Source of the DNA: a virus
Direction: 5' to 3' (one strand)
IMG/VR virus record: IMGVR_UViG_3300033143_001596
Location: 1 to 20,469 of that record
DNA length: 20,469 nucleotides
Shown here: in pieces, positions 12,053 to 19,811 of the stretch
Layout: every line of letters starts with the position of its first letter
How positions within the stretch are numbered: position 1 is the first letter of the stretch
Translations under genes and position numbers: made by a program
Notes under the pieces: model-generated
Database searches by the model: none
What the model saw: the letters and a program-made list of their open reading frames with translations, nothing else
What the model was told of the DNA's origin: nothing

Positions 12053-14095
12053 TTACCACGCTACACCTGTGATAACCTGTACCCCACCTAGTCTTGAAAT
12101 ACTCCAATCCATACCTAGCTTAAATCTCAACGCTGTAGTATCTGTTTGAAACATACTTCTAACCGGTAAAGCTGTTACTGCACTACCATTACCAATAGGT
12201 TCTGCAGGGTTAGCCATAACTACAGTAGCTTGTGTAGAAACTTCAAACTGTGGTGCAAAATCTGTACCAAAACTCATAGCACGATCATCAATCAAAAATA
12301 CTACATCATCCGGTACATTTGTAGATGTTACGATAGTAAACCCATCTACTAAACCATCTTTTAGAGGATACTGCCCTAGTGCATTTGTTTTTCTTCTCAA
12401 ATGTCTTGAAATTTTAGGGTTCATTACAATAACCCCACTTTGTCCTAGCTCTACTGCACCCATACGATCCATAGCTGCATCCAAATCTGCTTCTATAGCT
12501 GCTATATCTGTACCTGTTGCTGCATTGATATTACCTGCACCTGTTGCTGTTGCATTTTGAAGTCCTGCAGGTCTAGGGTTAGGTAGTCCGGCTACTGCTG
12601 CATTGTCTAGGAATGCTGCATCAATAGCTTTTGCAGTATCTTCTAAAATATCAGTTCTTACAATCTGCTCTACATTTGGAGTACTTGATTTAAGAATTTC
12701 TGCAGTAAATGTAGTGATAACTGCCATTTTCTTAGGTGTAAGAGTTTGTGTTACAAATGCATCCTCTTTTACCGGAATTGGCTGCCCCTCACCTACGAAC
12801 CCACCGGAAACATCTGCGCCTGCTTTTCTAGCAGGAATGATAACCGATCTAGCTTTTCCAAACTCAAATTTACGCCCACCAACTCTACCATATACTGTCA
12901 TAGGGTATAGCGTTTCTAGGAAACTGTCATAACCTTGCTGTACTAAGTTACCTGCCCATTCTGCATCTGTTGTAGTTGCCGGATCAGTTGCAGCTTTTAC
13001 TAAGTCCTTTAGTCCTTTTGTATCTGCATAGTAAAGTTCTGCTGCAGCTACAGGTGATATTTTTGCACCAAATGCTTTAATAGTTGTTACGATCCCTTTA
13101 AATACTAAGCTCTTAGCTTCATCTTCATTTAGCTTCTCTTCTGCAGCTACTACAGTTTCTACTACACCACCTGCAGCTTTTACCTCGATAGCTTCAAACT
13201 GCTCAATTCTACCTGTTAGCGTTTTGATCTCATCTGAAAGTTCACTCATTTTTGCTACATCTGCATCTGATAAATCATCTTTTGCATTTAGCTTATTTAG
13301 TTCTGCACTCTTAACTGCCATTTTGCCCTGTGCTGCTGCAATTCTCTCTTGTATAGTCATAGCCTTAAATCCTCTTTTTATTGATTTTGTTTTTATGTTT
13401 AAGTTATTATCCCCTGCTTTAGTACTGCTGCAATCCCCATTCATGGTACATATTCGCTTTACCTCATCATTCGATAAATAACTAAACTCTTTTGCTAATG
13501 CGTTTTGGTTTGCCGGAATTGAAACTAAGCTACACTCAAATAAGTAGTTTTCGTCTAAGTCATAACCTCCAAAGGTGTTAGCTTTGGATTTTTTACTTCT
13601 AAACCCTACAGATACACTTTTTAAAATGTCCTGCTCTACTAATTTGTGAAGAGAGTTAATGAAGTCACTCGTACCCACTTCTGCTAATTCAAGATCACCC
13701 TGCAGCATCCCATCCTGTACCCTAATGTTTATCCATTTACCTACAGGGTTGGTATGATCGTGAAAAGCTAATACTATGGGGTTTTTGATAAAATCATCTA
13801 AATCCCAATTCTGCAATACTCGATCACCATCCCTATCTATATCCGGTGTACTGAATACAAAAGTTTTGCTGCTAGTTTTCTTTGTCTTAGTGTGTAGTTT
13901 TTTCTTATCCATGCTGTAATAATAGCATAAAGTATGATACTTTAACAATAACTCTTCAAGTCTATATGTCAAACTTCTAACCTTATCCGGATCACCTATA
14001 TTTTTTCTAATCTGAATAAGTAAGTTTGCTACCTCATCCTGCAGGTTTGTAAGATCACTTAATAGATTATTTATATTTAGGCTACTCTTACTCAC
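12053..14095 (-). CDS. Prohead protease fused to major capsid protein (HK97 fold)
   Basis: A 680-aa fusion. Residues 77-205 are a U35-type prohead protease: FSTPDIDRDGDRV (81-93), catalytic-region HDHTNPVGKW (112-121), SVSVGF with likely Ser162, and LFECSLVSIPANQNA (185-199). Residues 246-305 are a heptad-rich delta-like scaffolding helix (ERIAAAQGKM ... IEQFEAIE). The rest is the HK97-fold capsid protein (e.g. EFGKARSVIIPARKAG, MDWSISRLGGVQVITGV at the end). The protease would trim the delta segment after prohead assembly. Start GTG at 14095 overlaps the upstream stop; its ribosome site is weak, and residues 1-61 are an extra helical N-terminus. Met62 is an alternative start. Met246 (ATG 13360) has a strong internal ribosome site, so capsid protein alone (435 aa) is probably also made. 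Normally the two proteins are separate genes. Confidence 0.94.
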   Translation of the reverse strand: MSKSSLNINNLLSDLTNLQDEVANLLIQIRKNIGDPDKVRSLTYRLEELLLKYHTLCYYYSMDKKKLHTKTKKTSSKTFVFSTPDIDRDGDRVLQNWDLDDFIKNPIVLAFHDHTNPVGKWINIRVQDGMLQGDLELAEVGTSDFINSLHKLVEQDILKSVSVGFRSKKSKANTFGGYDLDENYLFECSLVSIPANQNALAKEFSYLSNDEVKRICTMNGDCSSTKAGDNNLNIKTKSIKRGFKAMTIQERIAAAQGKMAVKSAELNKLNAKDDLSDADVAKMSELSDEIKTLTGRIEQFEAIEVKAAGGVVETVVAAEEKLNEDEAKSLVFKGIVTTIKAFGAKISPVAAAELYYADTKGLKDLVKAATDPATTTDAEWAGNLVQQGYDSFLETLYPMTVYGRVGGRKFEFGKARSVIIPARKAGADVSGGFVGEGQPIPVKEDAFVTQTLTPKKMAVITTFTAEILKSSTPNVEQIVRTDILEDTAKAIDAAFLDNAAVAGLPNPRPAGLQNATATGAGNINAATGTDIAAIEADLDAAMDRMGAVELGQSGVIVMNPKISRHLRRKTNALGQYPLKDGLVDGFTIVTSTNVPDDVVFLIDDRAMSFGTDFAPQFEVSTQATVVMANPAEPIGNGSAVTALPVRSMFQTDTTALRFKLGMDWSISRLGGVQVITGVAW
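13358..13377 (-). promoter_or_regulatory. Internal ribosome site and ATG for the capsid protein alone
   Basis: Inside the fusion gene the minus strand has AAAGAGGA, nine bases from ATG 13360-13358 (MTIQERIAAAQ). This is one of the best ribosome sites in the window, and it falls exactly at the protease/delta-domain junction. It predicts two products: the 680-aa fusion in small amount and a 435-aa capsid precursor in large amount, giving the ratio a head needs. Confidence 0.72.
13919..13948 (-). promoter_or_regulatory. Possible promoter with 15-bp palindrome inside the protease gene start
   Basis: On the minus strand TTGTTA (13943-13948), an 18-base spacer and extended -10 TGCTATTAT (hexamer 13919-13924) precede Met62 (ATG 13912-13910). 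The spacer holds AAAGTATCATACTTT (13929-13943), a perfect 15-bp palindrome. It could drive a shorter protease-capsid mRNA under repressor control. The region is coding, so chance cannot be excluded. Confidence 0.33.
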
Positions 14096-16741: not shown

Positions 16742-17284
16742 TTATTGCCTTACCATATCCAAAACTCTCTTTTCACCTGCAGTAACTAATTTTGCTTTAT
16801 TGGCTATTAGGGTTTTTTTAACTGCTGCAGCATATAAAGTTTCATATAGCGTACCTAGCTCATACAGGGTGATTAATCTATTCAGAGTACCCACGCTATC
16901 CATAAGTTCTATTTCCTTGTTTAAGAAGTACTGTACCCCATCTGCATTTAACTTTCCTAGATCATCTGTCAAGTACTCTTCATTATCTCTAAGTGTAGCT
17001 ATCGCTATTTTAAATTTATGGGATAGCTCTTTACAAAACTTTTCAAGTACTCCTATAGGAATACCATCTTTTGTGTTTTTGTATTTAGAGTGCAGGATAG
17101 TTAATCTCTCTCTTCTGTTTATAAAATCTACAGTATCCCTATTATTTCTAATCCACTCTATAAATAATTCCGGATCGCTTACTGTGGATAATGCATCTAG
17201 TATCCCTACTTGATCCTGTTGGTTATTAAAATCCAATCCTAGTATATTGGCTAGTCTAATTGAGGTAGTTTTAGATATTTGCAT
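16742..17284 (-). CDS. Protein of unknown function linked to the replication initiator
   Basis: A 180-aa, mostly helical, acidic protein, not recognised as a known family. Features: an N-terminal helix with ISKTTSIRLANILGL, a middle with LFIEWIRNNRDTVDFINRRER, and a C-terminal helical part with MDSVGTLNRLITLYELGTLY. No nucleotide-binding motif. The ATG has AAAGG, and the start overlaps the initiator's end by 14 bases, so both are translated together. By analogy with phage pairs of replication initiator and helicase-loading partner, it could be a loader or accessory replication factor, but it lacks Walker motifs, so this is position-based inference. Confidence 0.66.
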   Translation of the reverse strand: MQISKTTSIRLANILGLDFNNQQDQVGILDALSTVSDPELFIEWIRNNRDTVDFINRRERLTILHSKYKNTKDGIPIGVLEKFCKELSHKFKIAIATLRDNEEYLTDDLGKLNADGVQYFLNKEIELMDSVGTLNRLITLYELGTLYETLYAAAVKKTLIANKAKLVTAGEKRVLDMVRQ

Positions 17285-17957
17285 TGTATGCCTTTAGAAG
17301 ATCATCAAATCCATTATCTTTAGTCCTAGCATTACTCATCATTTGTGCTTCCATCACATCAAACTTATCTCTTAGCTTTTTACCACTCAAAATATTTGCT
17401 TTCCAAAAATCACCATCTGCAGTATAAATCCAATCAATACACCCTAACAATTCTGCTTCTGATCTCTTATCAACTCTCATAGCCAAATCAATCTCTCTAC
17501 TCCATGCTTTTTTAGAGTAGGTTTTAAAGTTAGGTTTTAACGATAAAATCTTATTTTTTAAATGTGTGACTATATTATCTACACTTAAGTTATCTTCCTT
17601 AATAGGATATGTCGGAACTTTGTTCATACCCTCATCGGAACTTTGTTCATAGGAACTTTGTTCATAGTCGGAACTTTGTTCATACCCCGAAACTGACATA
17701 AAATCTTTGTATCTTTTGGTTACTTTTAGATGCCCTTTTGAGTTACTTTTTAGGTAGTTTTTATCAACTAATCTAAGTCTTATTTTAAAGAAACCTCGCT
17801 CTGTAATACCATGATGTGCAGCTAAGTTTTTCTTACTTGCATAGCACCAATTTGTATCACCTGTTAGAAAATCTACATTCTCTAATATCATCATATCGGA
17901 TGGGTATATCCCCATTTTTTTGCATAGATTAATGTCTATGGTATAGTGATTTTTCAT
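17271..17957 (-). CDS. Replication initiator-like protein with winged helix
   Basis: A 228-aa protein. Residues 38-80 (CYASKKNLAAHHGITERGFF, then KIRLRLVDKNYLK) form a winged-helix DNA-binding domain of the type in phage replisome organisers. Residues 90-118 are a low-complexity linker built of YEQSS repeats, encoded by iteron-like DNA. The C-terminal part (149-205) has the pattern W.REID.AMRVD ... CIDWIYTADGDFWKANI followed by LRDKFD.ME.Q, common in phage O/DnaD-like initiators that bind helicase or loader. It likely binds the repeats in its own gene and starts phage replication. There is no clear ribosome site before ATG 17957, and a 180-base structured leader precedes it, so translation may be controlled. 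The function call is strong on architecture. Confidence 0.84.
   Translation of the reverse strand: MKNHYTIDINLCKKMGIYPSDMMILENVDFLTGDTNWCYASKKNLAAHHGITERGFFKIRLRLVDKNYLKSNSKGHLKVTKRYKDFMSVSGYEQSSDYEQSSYEQSSDEGMNKVPTYPIKEDNLSVDNIVTHLKNKILSLKPNFKTYSKKAWSREIDLAMRVDKRSEAELLGCIDWIYTADGDFWKANILSGKKLRDKFDVMEAQMMSNARTKDNGFDDLLKAYNANI
17614..17684. repeat. Four iteron-like repeats in the initiator gene (candidate replication origin)
   Basis: Four exact copies of GGAACTTTGTTCATA lie at 17614-17628, 17637-17651, 17652-17666 and 17670-17684, spaced 23, 15 and 18 bases from start to start. Each contains the short dyad GAAC-x3-GTTC. Three copies encode YEQSS in one frame, but the copy at 17614 is read in a different frame (MNKVP), so the DNA, not the peptide, is conserved. 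An AT-rich stretch (17541-17566, with TTATTTTTTAAAT) follows 50 bases away, as in lambda-type origins inside gene O. Confidence 0.78.
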
Positions 17958-18001
17958 AACAATTCTAACGGACTTTTGATTTTAAAGCATGATGTAGATA
18001 C

Positions 18002-18088
18002 CCCGTCCAAAAGGTAAATGATCTGTTATAGCCTTAATAATCCGTCCACTCTTAAGAGTGAATGGATAACCTTTGGACGGGTTATTAA
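18002..18088 (-). ncRNA. Structured leader with two competing stems upstream of the initiator gene
   Basis: Three copies of a CCGTCC core lie in the 213-base gap. The 3'-most on the plus strand (ACCTTTGGACGGG, 18069-18081, continuing to TTATTAA at 18088) can pair with CCCGTCCAAAAGGT (18002-18015), with one bulge. It can also pair with TTAATAATCCGTCC (18034-18047) through its other flank, with one mismatch. These pairings exclude each other. A perfect 14-bp palindrome CACTCTTAAGAGTG (18047-18060) lies between. No U-run follows, so a transcription terminator is unlikely; translational control, a small RNA or DNA sites for an initiator are all possible. Confidence 0.5.
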
Positions 18089-18109
18089 AGCTACTTTAGA
18101 AGTAAGCAG

Positions 18110-18135
18110 GAAACCTCTACAGATGTAAAAGTTTC
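18110..18135. promoter_or_regulatory. 26-bp dyad at the start of the replication transcript (operator candidate)
   Basis: Plus-strand arms GAAAC-x3-TACA (18110-18121, the arm ending CTACA) and TGTA-x3-GTTTC (18124-18135) mirror each other around two bases; the x3 blocks pair only by wobble in RNA. The dyad begins at the predicted transcription start (about 18135), where a bound repressor would block the promoter. The minus-strand centre TTTACATCTGTA resembles the palindrome TTTACATTGTAAA at the tail promoter. An mRNA 5' hairpin is the alternative. Confidence 0.58.
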
Positions 18136-18141
18136 ATGTGT

Positions 18142-18170
18142 ATTATAGTGTGTTTATCCTTTATTGTCAA
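18142..18170 (-). promoter_or_regulatory. Consensus sigma-70 promoter for the replication genes
   Basis: The minus strand has TTGACA (18165-18170), exactly 17 bases and TATAAT (18142-18147): a full consensus promoter placed directly after the large terminase stop. It would drive the initiator gene and those after it. Such a perfect promoter would be strong and needs control, which fits the dyad just downstream. A six-codon ATG frame (MKLLHL) begins at or near the transcription start and may be meaningless. Confidence 0.85.
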
Positions 18171-19811
18171 TTAACCGATCAAACTATCCAAATCTACAGT
18201 TTCATCTACATGCACCCCTGCTCTACCTATTGCCATAGCTAACGCTACTGCACCATCTATTTTCTCCATAGCCTTAGATTTATCCATTTTTACATTATCT
18301 GCTGCATCTGTAGTGATCGCTACATTTGCTATATTCCAATTCAGTACAGGGTTATTACCATGATTTAATAGTTTCTGCAGCACTAACGCTTCAATCTCTT
18401 TTACAGGTGAACTCATAGATTTATAACCCTGCCCAAAACCTACCATAGTCATACCCTTCTGCTCTAAGTTTGTTACTAAGCTGTGGCTATTCCATCTATC
18501 AAATGCCATTTCTCTAATGTCAAACTTTGCAGCATCATCCAAAATTTTATTTTCTATCACCTCATAATCTATAACATTACCCTCTGTGGTGGTGATCCAT
18601 CCCTCTCTGATCCAATCTAAGTAAGATACCTTATCCGTCCTAGATCGCTCTATAGCGTTTTCAGATGGTATGAAAAACCGGCATAAAGCATCATAGCTAC
18701 CATCACCATTAGGAAATACATAAACTATAGCTGTAAGGTCTGTTACAGATGATAAATCTAGTCCACCGTAACACTCCCTACCTACCAAATCCTCTTCTGT
18801 AAACTCTTTTCTGTTGGATGCTAACCAATCTGTAGATTTAATCCATGTTACTGCAGCATCCACCCACATACATAAATGCTTAGTCTTAAATGATACCTCT
18901 TCTGTAGCGCTGTGTAGTGCTTTTGTGAACTTATCTCTAAGGTAATCAAGCTTTACCCCATATCCTATAGCCGGATTAACCTTGATCCAATTCTCTTCTA
19001 AAGTCCAATCATCTTCAAGTGTAAGTGAATAATCCATTAGAAAAACACTATCATCTTTTATCGTACCATCCATAACCTGTTTAGCGTATGCCAATAGCCG
19101 GTAAAAGAAACCATTTTTATTGTAACCTGCAGTAGTGATAATAATACTCAAAGGTTGATCTCTATGCGCCATACTCTCACTCATAACATTATAAAGTTCT
19201 GCAGATGGGTATGCATGTGCTTCATCACTTGTTAGTACAGATGCTTTTAATCCATCTTTTGTACCTGCAGTAGATGAAAGTACTTTAAATAAATCCACAA
19301 ATGATCCGGCTATGGTTTCTATGGATTTTGTGGACTTCCAAACATTTACCCTTTTAAAGAGTGCCGGTGCTTGTTTTAGCATAGCCACGATAGCAGCGTA
19401 AAGTATTGTAGCCTGTTGCGTTTCAGATGCGATAACATACTGCTCTTTTTGCTTCTCATCATCCCCAAAATATAGCCATAGGTTGATAGCTGCCAAAAGT
19501 TCAGTTTTACCCTGTTTTCTAGGTACAAAAAGTATTACAGTTTTATGCTTCCTGTACCCATTTTTATGCTGCATTACTGCCAAAGTTTCTAAGATAAATT
19601 CTACTTGAAAAGGTAGTAATTGAAAGTTGATACCACCTAATGCACCACCGGTATGTTTTAAAAGAGATATGAATTTTATGATCTTGTTTGCTAATGGTAC
19701 ATCTAGGTAAAATGGTGTACCCTCATACTTCTTTTCTACCTCTAATATAACTACCTGCGCTTCTGCTATTACCGTTTCACGATCCCTAACTTCTACTTTG
19801 GTACTATCCAT
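18171..19811 (-). CDS. terL: Terminase large subunit
   Basis: A 546-aa packaging motor with ATPase and nuclease. ATPase part: Walker A VPRKQGKTE (96-104), Walker B region with acidic pair DE196-197 (VLTSDEAH), and coupling motif TTAG (226-229). Nuclease part (RNase H-like): D352 in GGLDLSSVTDLT, D438 in MAFDRW, and D519 in KIDGAVALAMA, the three expected metal-binding acids. The length and motif order match the HK97/YmfN-type large terminases, which bind the portal and cut concatemers. The start overlaps the small subunit by eight bases with AAGGG seven bases upstream. A full consensus promoter begins directly after its TAA stop. The gene ends without a terminator hairpin that I can see. Confidence 0.95.
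   Translation of the reverse strand: MDSTKVEVRDRETVIAEAQVVILEVEKKYEGTPFYLDVPLANKIIKFISLLKHTGGALGGINFQLLPFQVEFILETLAVMQHKNGYRKHKTVILFVPRKQGKTELLAAINLWLYFGDDEKQKEQYVIASETQQATILYAAIVAMLKQAPALFKRVNVWKSTKSIETIAGSFVDLFKVLSSTAGTKDGLKASVLTSDEAHAYPSAELYNVMSESMAHRDQPLSIIITTAGYNKNGFFYRLLAYAKQVMDGTIKDDSVFLMDYSLTLEDDWTLEENWIKVNPAIGYGVKLDYLRDKFTKALHSATEEVSFKTKHLCMWVDAAVTWIKSTDWLASNRKEFTEEDLVGRECYGGLDLSSVTDLTAIVYVFPNGDGSYDALCRFFIPSENAIERSRTDKVSYLDWIREGWITTTEGNVIDYEVIENKILDDAAKFDIREMAFDRWNSHSLVTNLEQKGMTMVGFGQGYKSMSSPVKEIEALVLQKLLNHGNNPVLNWNIANVAITTDAADNVKMDKSKAMEKIDGAVALAMAIGRAGVHVDETVDLDSLIG

Follow-up and report, generated by a model that had tools for sequence, protein, structure and literature searches.

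A putative phage replication origin within its initiator gene, and covariation of recognition helix and repeat half-sites across an initiator family

Gene Content of the Window

The window, i.e., the whole stretch of DNA analyzed here, is an IMG/VR record of 20,469 bases that represents a fragment. Its host is probably campylobacterotan, because the terminase is closest to those of Campylobacter CJIE4 prophages (43% identity) and the closest C-terminal matches of the putative initiator are found in the Nitratiruptor phages NrS-4/5. The features of the replication locus are as follows.

17271..17957, minus strand: putative initiator gene (228 aa) with a wHTH, a disordered linker, and a helical C-terminal domain (ORF, PHROGs, AF2)
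17688..17957, minus strand: predicted wHTH DNA-binding domain, residues 1-90 (AF2, Foldseek)
17763..17801, minus strand: predicted recognition helix, residues 53-65 (AF2)
17671..17681: putative iteron 1 in gene order, GAAC-N3-GTTC, frame YEQSS
17653..17663: putative iteron 2, GAAC-N3-GTTC, frame YEQSS
17638..17648: putative iteron 3, GAAC-N3-GTTC, frame YEQSS
17615..17625: putative iteron 4, GAAC-N3-GTTC, shifted frame, MNKVP
17535..17594: AT-rich stretch, candidate DNA unwinding element, located 3' of the array (gene orientation) at a distance of 20-80 bp
17274..17582, minus strand: helical C-terminal domain, residues 126-228, DnaD/O-like, presumed replisome contact (PHROGs, NrS-4 identity)
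16742..17284, minus strand: 180-aa ORF overlapping the end of the initiator gene, in the position of a helicase-loader gene

One row of minus-strand genes (17271-19811) holds the replication gene with the terminase on one side and the structural genes on the other, which is an unusual position for a replication module. The intergenic stretch 17958-18170, which separates terL from the initiator gene, has an unusually good fold (z = -4.06), in which the long arms CCCGTCCAAAAGGT/ACCTTTGGACGGG enclose an inner hairpin, and this region has no Rfam match. Elsewhere in the window, a 680-aa ORF (12053-14095) resembles, by eye, a fusion of a prohead protease with a major capsid protein.

A preliminary description of this DNA had reported four exact 15-base copies, three encoding YEQSS and one encoding MNKVP from identical bases, and both statements were confirmed. 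An exact search placed GGAACTTTGTTCATA at plus-strand starts 17614, 17637, 17652, and 17670 (span 17614-17684; start-to-start spacings of 23, 15, and 18), with all four copies inside ORF 17957..17271(-), approximately 270-340 bp into the gene. The coding-strand unit is TATGAACAAAGTTCC, which is read as MNKVP in the frame-shifted copy at 17614, the last in gene order. No exact GGAACTTTGTTC occurs beyond these four copies in the 20.5-kb record, and there are five 12-mers at ≤2 mismatches compared to 1.2 expected. Among 20,000 synonymous-codon shuffles of the window gene, which retain the peptide and a codon usage that still includes the iteron codons, four GAACN3GTTC arose in 0.08% and four identical 15-mers in none. 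As a refinement, the functional unit appears to be an 11-bp palindrome, GAAC-AAA-GTTC, made of two 4-bp half-sites around three bases. Judged from the window gene alone, identical copies could also stem from a recent tandem duplication, but the cross-phage comparison of sequences described below excludes duplication as the whole explanation.

In the AF2 model, built with a family alignment, pLDDT is 94-98 over residues 11-90, with helices at residues 9-15, 19-32, 42-48, and 53-65 followed by two wing strands. The disordered linker (approximately residues 90-125) contains the iteron-encoded peptides, and the C-terminal part is helical at low to moderate confidence. The recognition-helix motif is T52-E53-R54-G55-F56-F57-K58, with R54 at position 2 and K58 at position 6. 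Foldseek with the wHTH retrieved generic wHTH proteins, including the CggR-DNA and RbkR-DNA complexes. In Pfam searches, the protein fell below the cut-off of HTH_36 (PF13730; 12.2 bits vs. 25, E = 0.16) and had no match to Phage_rep_O (PF04492). PHROG profiles identified a DnaD-like helicase loader (phrog_2514, E = 1.4e-15, residues 96-213), a replisome organizer (1.1e-11), and an O-like replication initiation protein (1.8e-11), bearing out the earlier placement of the repeats in an initiator-like gene, which also holds across a wide family. The entries phrog_2514 and phrog_4880 (DnaD-like phage helicase loader/replisome organizer), which match the C-terminal half, are themselves named by homology only.

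The C-terminal domain shares 49.5% identity over 96 aa with a protein of Nitratiruptor phage NrS-4, whose N-terminus differs from that of the window protein and whose gene lacks these repeats. Since the C-terminus is shared while the N-terminus and repeats are not, the domains are modular. Named phages resemble the window initiator in the C-terminal part only, and a peptide-pattern search of IMG/VR found no close relatives of the whole protein.

A Family of Initiators With In-Gene Repeats

Nine contigs came out of a search of IMG/VR for two 12-mers within 30 bases; in almost all of them the copies sit inside an initiator-like ORF, with the frames E-Q-S-S, N-K-V-P, and G/R-T-K-F mixed. When the centre was left free, three GAACN3GTTC were found in at least 119 IMG/VR stretches, compared to 17 for three copies of the reversed control palindrome CTTGN3CAAG, and many of these ORFs have a wHTH just upstream of the array. 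A GTDB scan with an 11-mer pair returned a mixture of true initiators (e.g., L014, L016, L022, L026, L030, L034, and L044), unrelated tandem repeats, and Bradyrhizobium pairs, from which only ORFs having a wHTH upstream of the array were kept. The IMG/VR stretches and GTDB loci together yielded a DNA-selected set of 50 non-redundant wHTH initiators. Their wHTH is approximately 18% identical to that of the window; HTH_36 matches 43 of the 50 at E ≤ 0.01, and Phage_rep_O only two. An arginine equivalent to R54 is present in 50/50, although the selection motif required it and it is hence not independent evidence. Viral contigs and bacterial genomes from a wide range of phyla share the in-gene repeat design, and this very large initiator family probably has plasmid members too.

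Conservation at the level of DNA across reading frames, as first proposed from the window, is upheld in these relatives: the copies use more than one frame in 46 of the 50 genes and all three frames in 19. Lambda O behaves alike, its four mapped iterons being in frames 0, 2, 2, and 1. The shifted copy, singled out in the preliminary description, is no oddity: frame shift is a regular property of in-gene origins, and frame-shifted copies were already known from lambda. Spacings amongst the 50 genes are mostly 21-23 bp (97/155), with smaller groups at approximately 33 and 15-18 bp, and only 37/155 are divisible by three; such clustering fits sites whose placement follows the DNA helix. The irregular spacing of the window had been taken as a possible sign of a different binding surface, which does not stand against family clusters at 22-23, ~33, and 15-18 bp and lambda spacings of 20, 24, and 23: the window spacings of 18, 15, and 23 fall within the family groups. 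The centres of the repeats vary while the half-sites are fixed, and synonymous shuffling rules out explanations by the peptide alone for one gene after another.

Two further observations were made in the GTDB material. In L044 (ORF L044:912-1580), the initiator frame stops past the linker, and the overlapping frame that comes next matches the O-like phrog_678, suggesting either a split gene or a frameshift. Many Bradyrhizobium genomes (L025, L032, L039, L047, L049-L051, L053, L060, L063, L070, L074, L076, L082, and L085) carry two or three copies of GAACTTTGTTC at intervals of 28-32 bp, close to where an ORF of mostly 440-510 aa begins; no wHTH initiator is involved.

Covariation of the Recognition Helix and the Half-Sites

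The DNA-selected set cannot show matching between protein and DNA because it was chosen by its DNA. Two samples were therefore chosen by protein, using the patterns [ASK]L[AC]DxA[ND]DxG (80 loci) and YA[IC]IYGF (80 loci) in the stretch upstream of the recognition helix. Each linker was searched de novo for repeated palindromes, the counts were compared with synonymous-codon shuffles, and helix positions were assigned via profile alignment. Amongst the 153 genes having enough linker, a palindrome family was found at p ≤ 0.02 in 89 and none at this threshold in 64; some of the two-copy calls are noise because the best palindrome was chosen in each gene and the per-gene p-values are uncorrected for this choice.

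The half-sites sort by helix residues. Helices with R2..K6 go with GAAC and those with R2..R6 with GACA in both subfamilies, R2..N6 often with GAAA, Q2..K6 with AAAC or CAAC, T2..K6 with TAAC, and R2-A3-V-[QR]-other with GCA and a wider centre. At position 6, this amounts to lysine with AAC, arginine with ACA, and asparagine with AAA. Helix positions 2, 3, and 6 couple to half-site bases: in 58 genes, after redundancy was removed at 70%, mutual information was 1.07 bits between position 2 and base -5 (z 13.1) and 1.11 bits between position 6 and base -2 (z 11.5). In these genes, R2 is paired with G at -5 in 28/29 cases and Q2 with A or C in 13/13. Kinship was controlled with gene pairs matched for identity outside the helix. 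Base -5 changed in 13/20 pairs differing at position 2 compared to 5/36 sharing it, and base -2 in 25/33 pairs differing at position 6 compared to 5/32 sharing it, while the control helix positions 1, 4, and 7 had little or no effect in matched pairs. The window gene is in neither protein-chosen sample, and its helix TERGFFK (R2, G3, and K6) predicts GAAC, as found.

Pfam was also used to collect HTH_36 proteins of other genomes. Their helices are mostly SRSTVKR-like, and almost all of the genes lack GAACN3GTTC; the exceptions are known iteron-bearing genes and one single copy in L277. The motif is also absent from L251 and L248, which have R-G or R-A helices. In the Pseudomonas and Stenotrophomonas phage loci L290, L292, L297, and L300, helices are SERAVQ[NGQ]AIKWL or similar and GAAC iterons are absent; their linker peptides QQVHP, ADAA, and RSKCTP suggest GCA-type repeats in several frames.

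The switch of half-sites can be followed in three homologous genes, L310, L325, and L324, which have an array layout common to all. L310 and L325 are 88% identical outside the helix. The helices are TSRAVQKTIRS (L310), AGRSVQRIIRD (L325), and KKRAVQLAIRS (L324), and the iterons at alike aligned positions are GAAC-N3-GTTC, GACA-N3-TGTC, and TGCA-N5-TGCA, respectively. Each set includes one or more imperfect iterons, and the alignment shows the intervening DNA to be largely unchanged. Concerted change of separate sites and of the helix that would read them is hard to explain except by binding. We found no earlier description of a residue-to-base code between helix and iterons in these initiators in the open-access literature.

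AT-Rich DNA, Neighboring Genes, and Alternative Explanations

AT-rich DNA beside the array, another element of the preliminary description, is present in the window and at the same place family-wide. The stretch in the window is 75-85% AT compared to a gene mean of 68%, and the contrast is modest because the whole gene is AT-rich to that degree. In the DNA-selected set, the AT-rich block begins directly after the array and has ended by 60-80 bp. In the protein-selected set, the three 20-bp bins nearest the array on its 3' side exceed a peptide-preserving null in AT content by 7.5, 7.9, and 3.0 percentage points, respectively (± ~0.9 in each case). The gene following the initiator encodes DnaB (L009, L013, L115, L134, and L137) or a DnaC-like or IstB-type ATPase (L005, L109, L136, L172, and L177) at 10 of the 20 iteron-positive loci tested. 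Family members without GAAC iterons also adjoin DnaB, ZapE-type ATPase, or primase/helicase genes. The 180-aa ORF next to the window initiator had no significant family match in Pfam and PHROG searches and no similarity to the gene after the NrS-4 initiator.

These surroundings bear on whether the sites, if bound by the protein, could be an operator for autoregulation instead of an origin. Covariation reveals recognition and not function, and in-gene operator sites would covary alike; moreover, the record has no other copies, so that a regulatory site would have to be the in-gene array. However, the depth of the sites within the gene is far from the usual promoter position, the AT-rich block lies on the 3' side family-wide, DnaB/DnaC-like genes adjoin the initiator in the family, and the layout matches the lambda ori, all of which make an operator unlikely.

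Selection for a YEQSS peptide repeat, with DNA identity left by recent tandem duplication, would agree with the one frame shared by three of the four copies, and unrelated ORFs do contain such duplication arrays (e.g., L052, L071, and L079). This reading is already contradicted by the use of all three frames across the family at non-codon spacings, the synonymous shuffles, and half-sites that switch in concert with the helix, and it also fails to account for fixed half-sites around varying centres; we regard it as very unlikely. Binding by a host protein, such as a LexA-like regulator, is likewise highly improbable. The Gram-positive LexA box is GAAC-N4-GTTC, a similar half-site, and the LexA wHTH is the top PDB sequence match of the family profile, but identical sites occur in phages and elements of very different hosts and the half-site tracks the phage protein's own helix. 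A LexA/SOS box was also rejected directly, as all four window copies have N3 spacing and not N4. An in-gene self-immunity or decoy element is extremely improbable: the bstA locus likewise contains a short direct-repeat DNA element, aba (PMC8585504), but the window gene has no phage-defense family match in Pfam and PHROG searches, its product has an initiator-like C-terminus, and helicase genes are neighbors in the family.

Comparison With Known Systems

Lambda O has the same order as the window gene, with an N-terminal DNA-binding region, imperfect inverted-repeat iterons within the gene, and then a C-terminal part. It differs in having its own iteron sequence and in going undetected by the family wHTH profile; the window protein was not filed as a lambda O homologue because the profile does not recognize lambda O, which belongs to PF04492. 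Gp38 of phage SPP1 binds direct repeats within its own gene 38 (oriL) beside an AT-rich unwinding element, accompanied by genes for a loader and a DnaB-type helicase (PMC6316719). The initiator sites of SPP1 are in-gene as in the window family, a likeness of layout drawn from the published description. HTH_36 genes are also known from the replication regions of Stx phages (Eru5/6/8/11/13 units), where iterons are unmentioned (PMC8951638). These proteins share their wHTH family with 43 of the 50 iteron-bearing relatives, while the window protein falls below the Pfam cut-off. In PLE RepA, the initiator DNA-binding domain covaries with the origin iterons (PMC8263062); unlike the window, the PLE origin is non-coding, with a RepA_N domain, iterons of approximately 30 bp, and no residue-to-base code.

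Proposed Mechanism and Implications

Taken with the repeats and their frames, the family, the helix/half-site covariation, the AT-rich block, and the helicase gene neighbors, the four repeats very likely serve as iterons of a phage replication origin located within the initiator gene and bound by the gene's own product, similar to lambda O and SPP1 gp38. We infer that each 11-bp palindrome would be bound by a dimer of the N-terminal winged-helix domain of the window protein, with the half-site read by R54 and K58 of the recognition helix. Initiators assembled on the four sites may then melt the AT-rich DNA just downstream, and the C-terminal DnaD/O-like domain may bring in the replicative helicase. 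Because the sites fall where the gene encodes an unstructured linker, the DNA may be free to preserve binding sites and helical spacing even when the reading frame is sacrificed.

At the level of the family, it is likely that the wHTH helix and the in-ORF half-sites change together, so that each gene of this very large group of phage initiators records its own specificity in a simple code (position 2: R for G, Q for A/C at -5; position 6: K for AAC, R for ACA, N for AAA; A-V-[QR]-other for GCA). A replicon would switch its specificity by changing one helix and all in-gene iterons in concert, and nature would thereby supply a library of matched winged-helix/DNA pairs. Individual model phages have already provided examples of in-gene origins. 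Here the DNA target may be readable from the gene itself, which would open protein-DNA recognition to study by sequence data only. If true, the origins of metagenomic phages could be located without experiments, and a large natural data set for winged-helix recognition would be at hand. The evolutionary question is how one helix and four or more sites within coding sequence change together, and L310, L325, and L324 are close relatives that make this question of concerted change directly testable.
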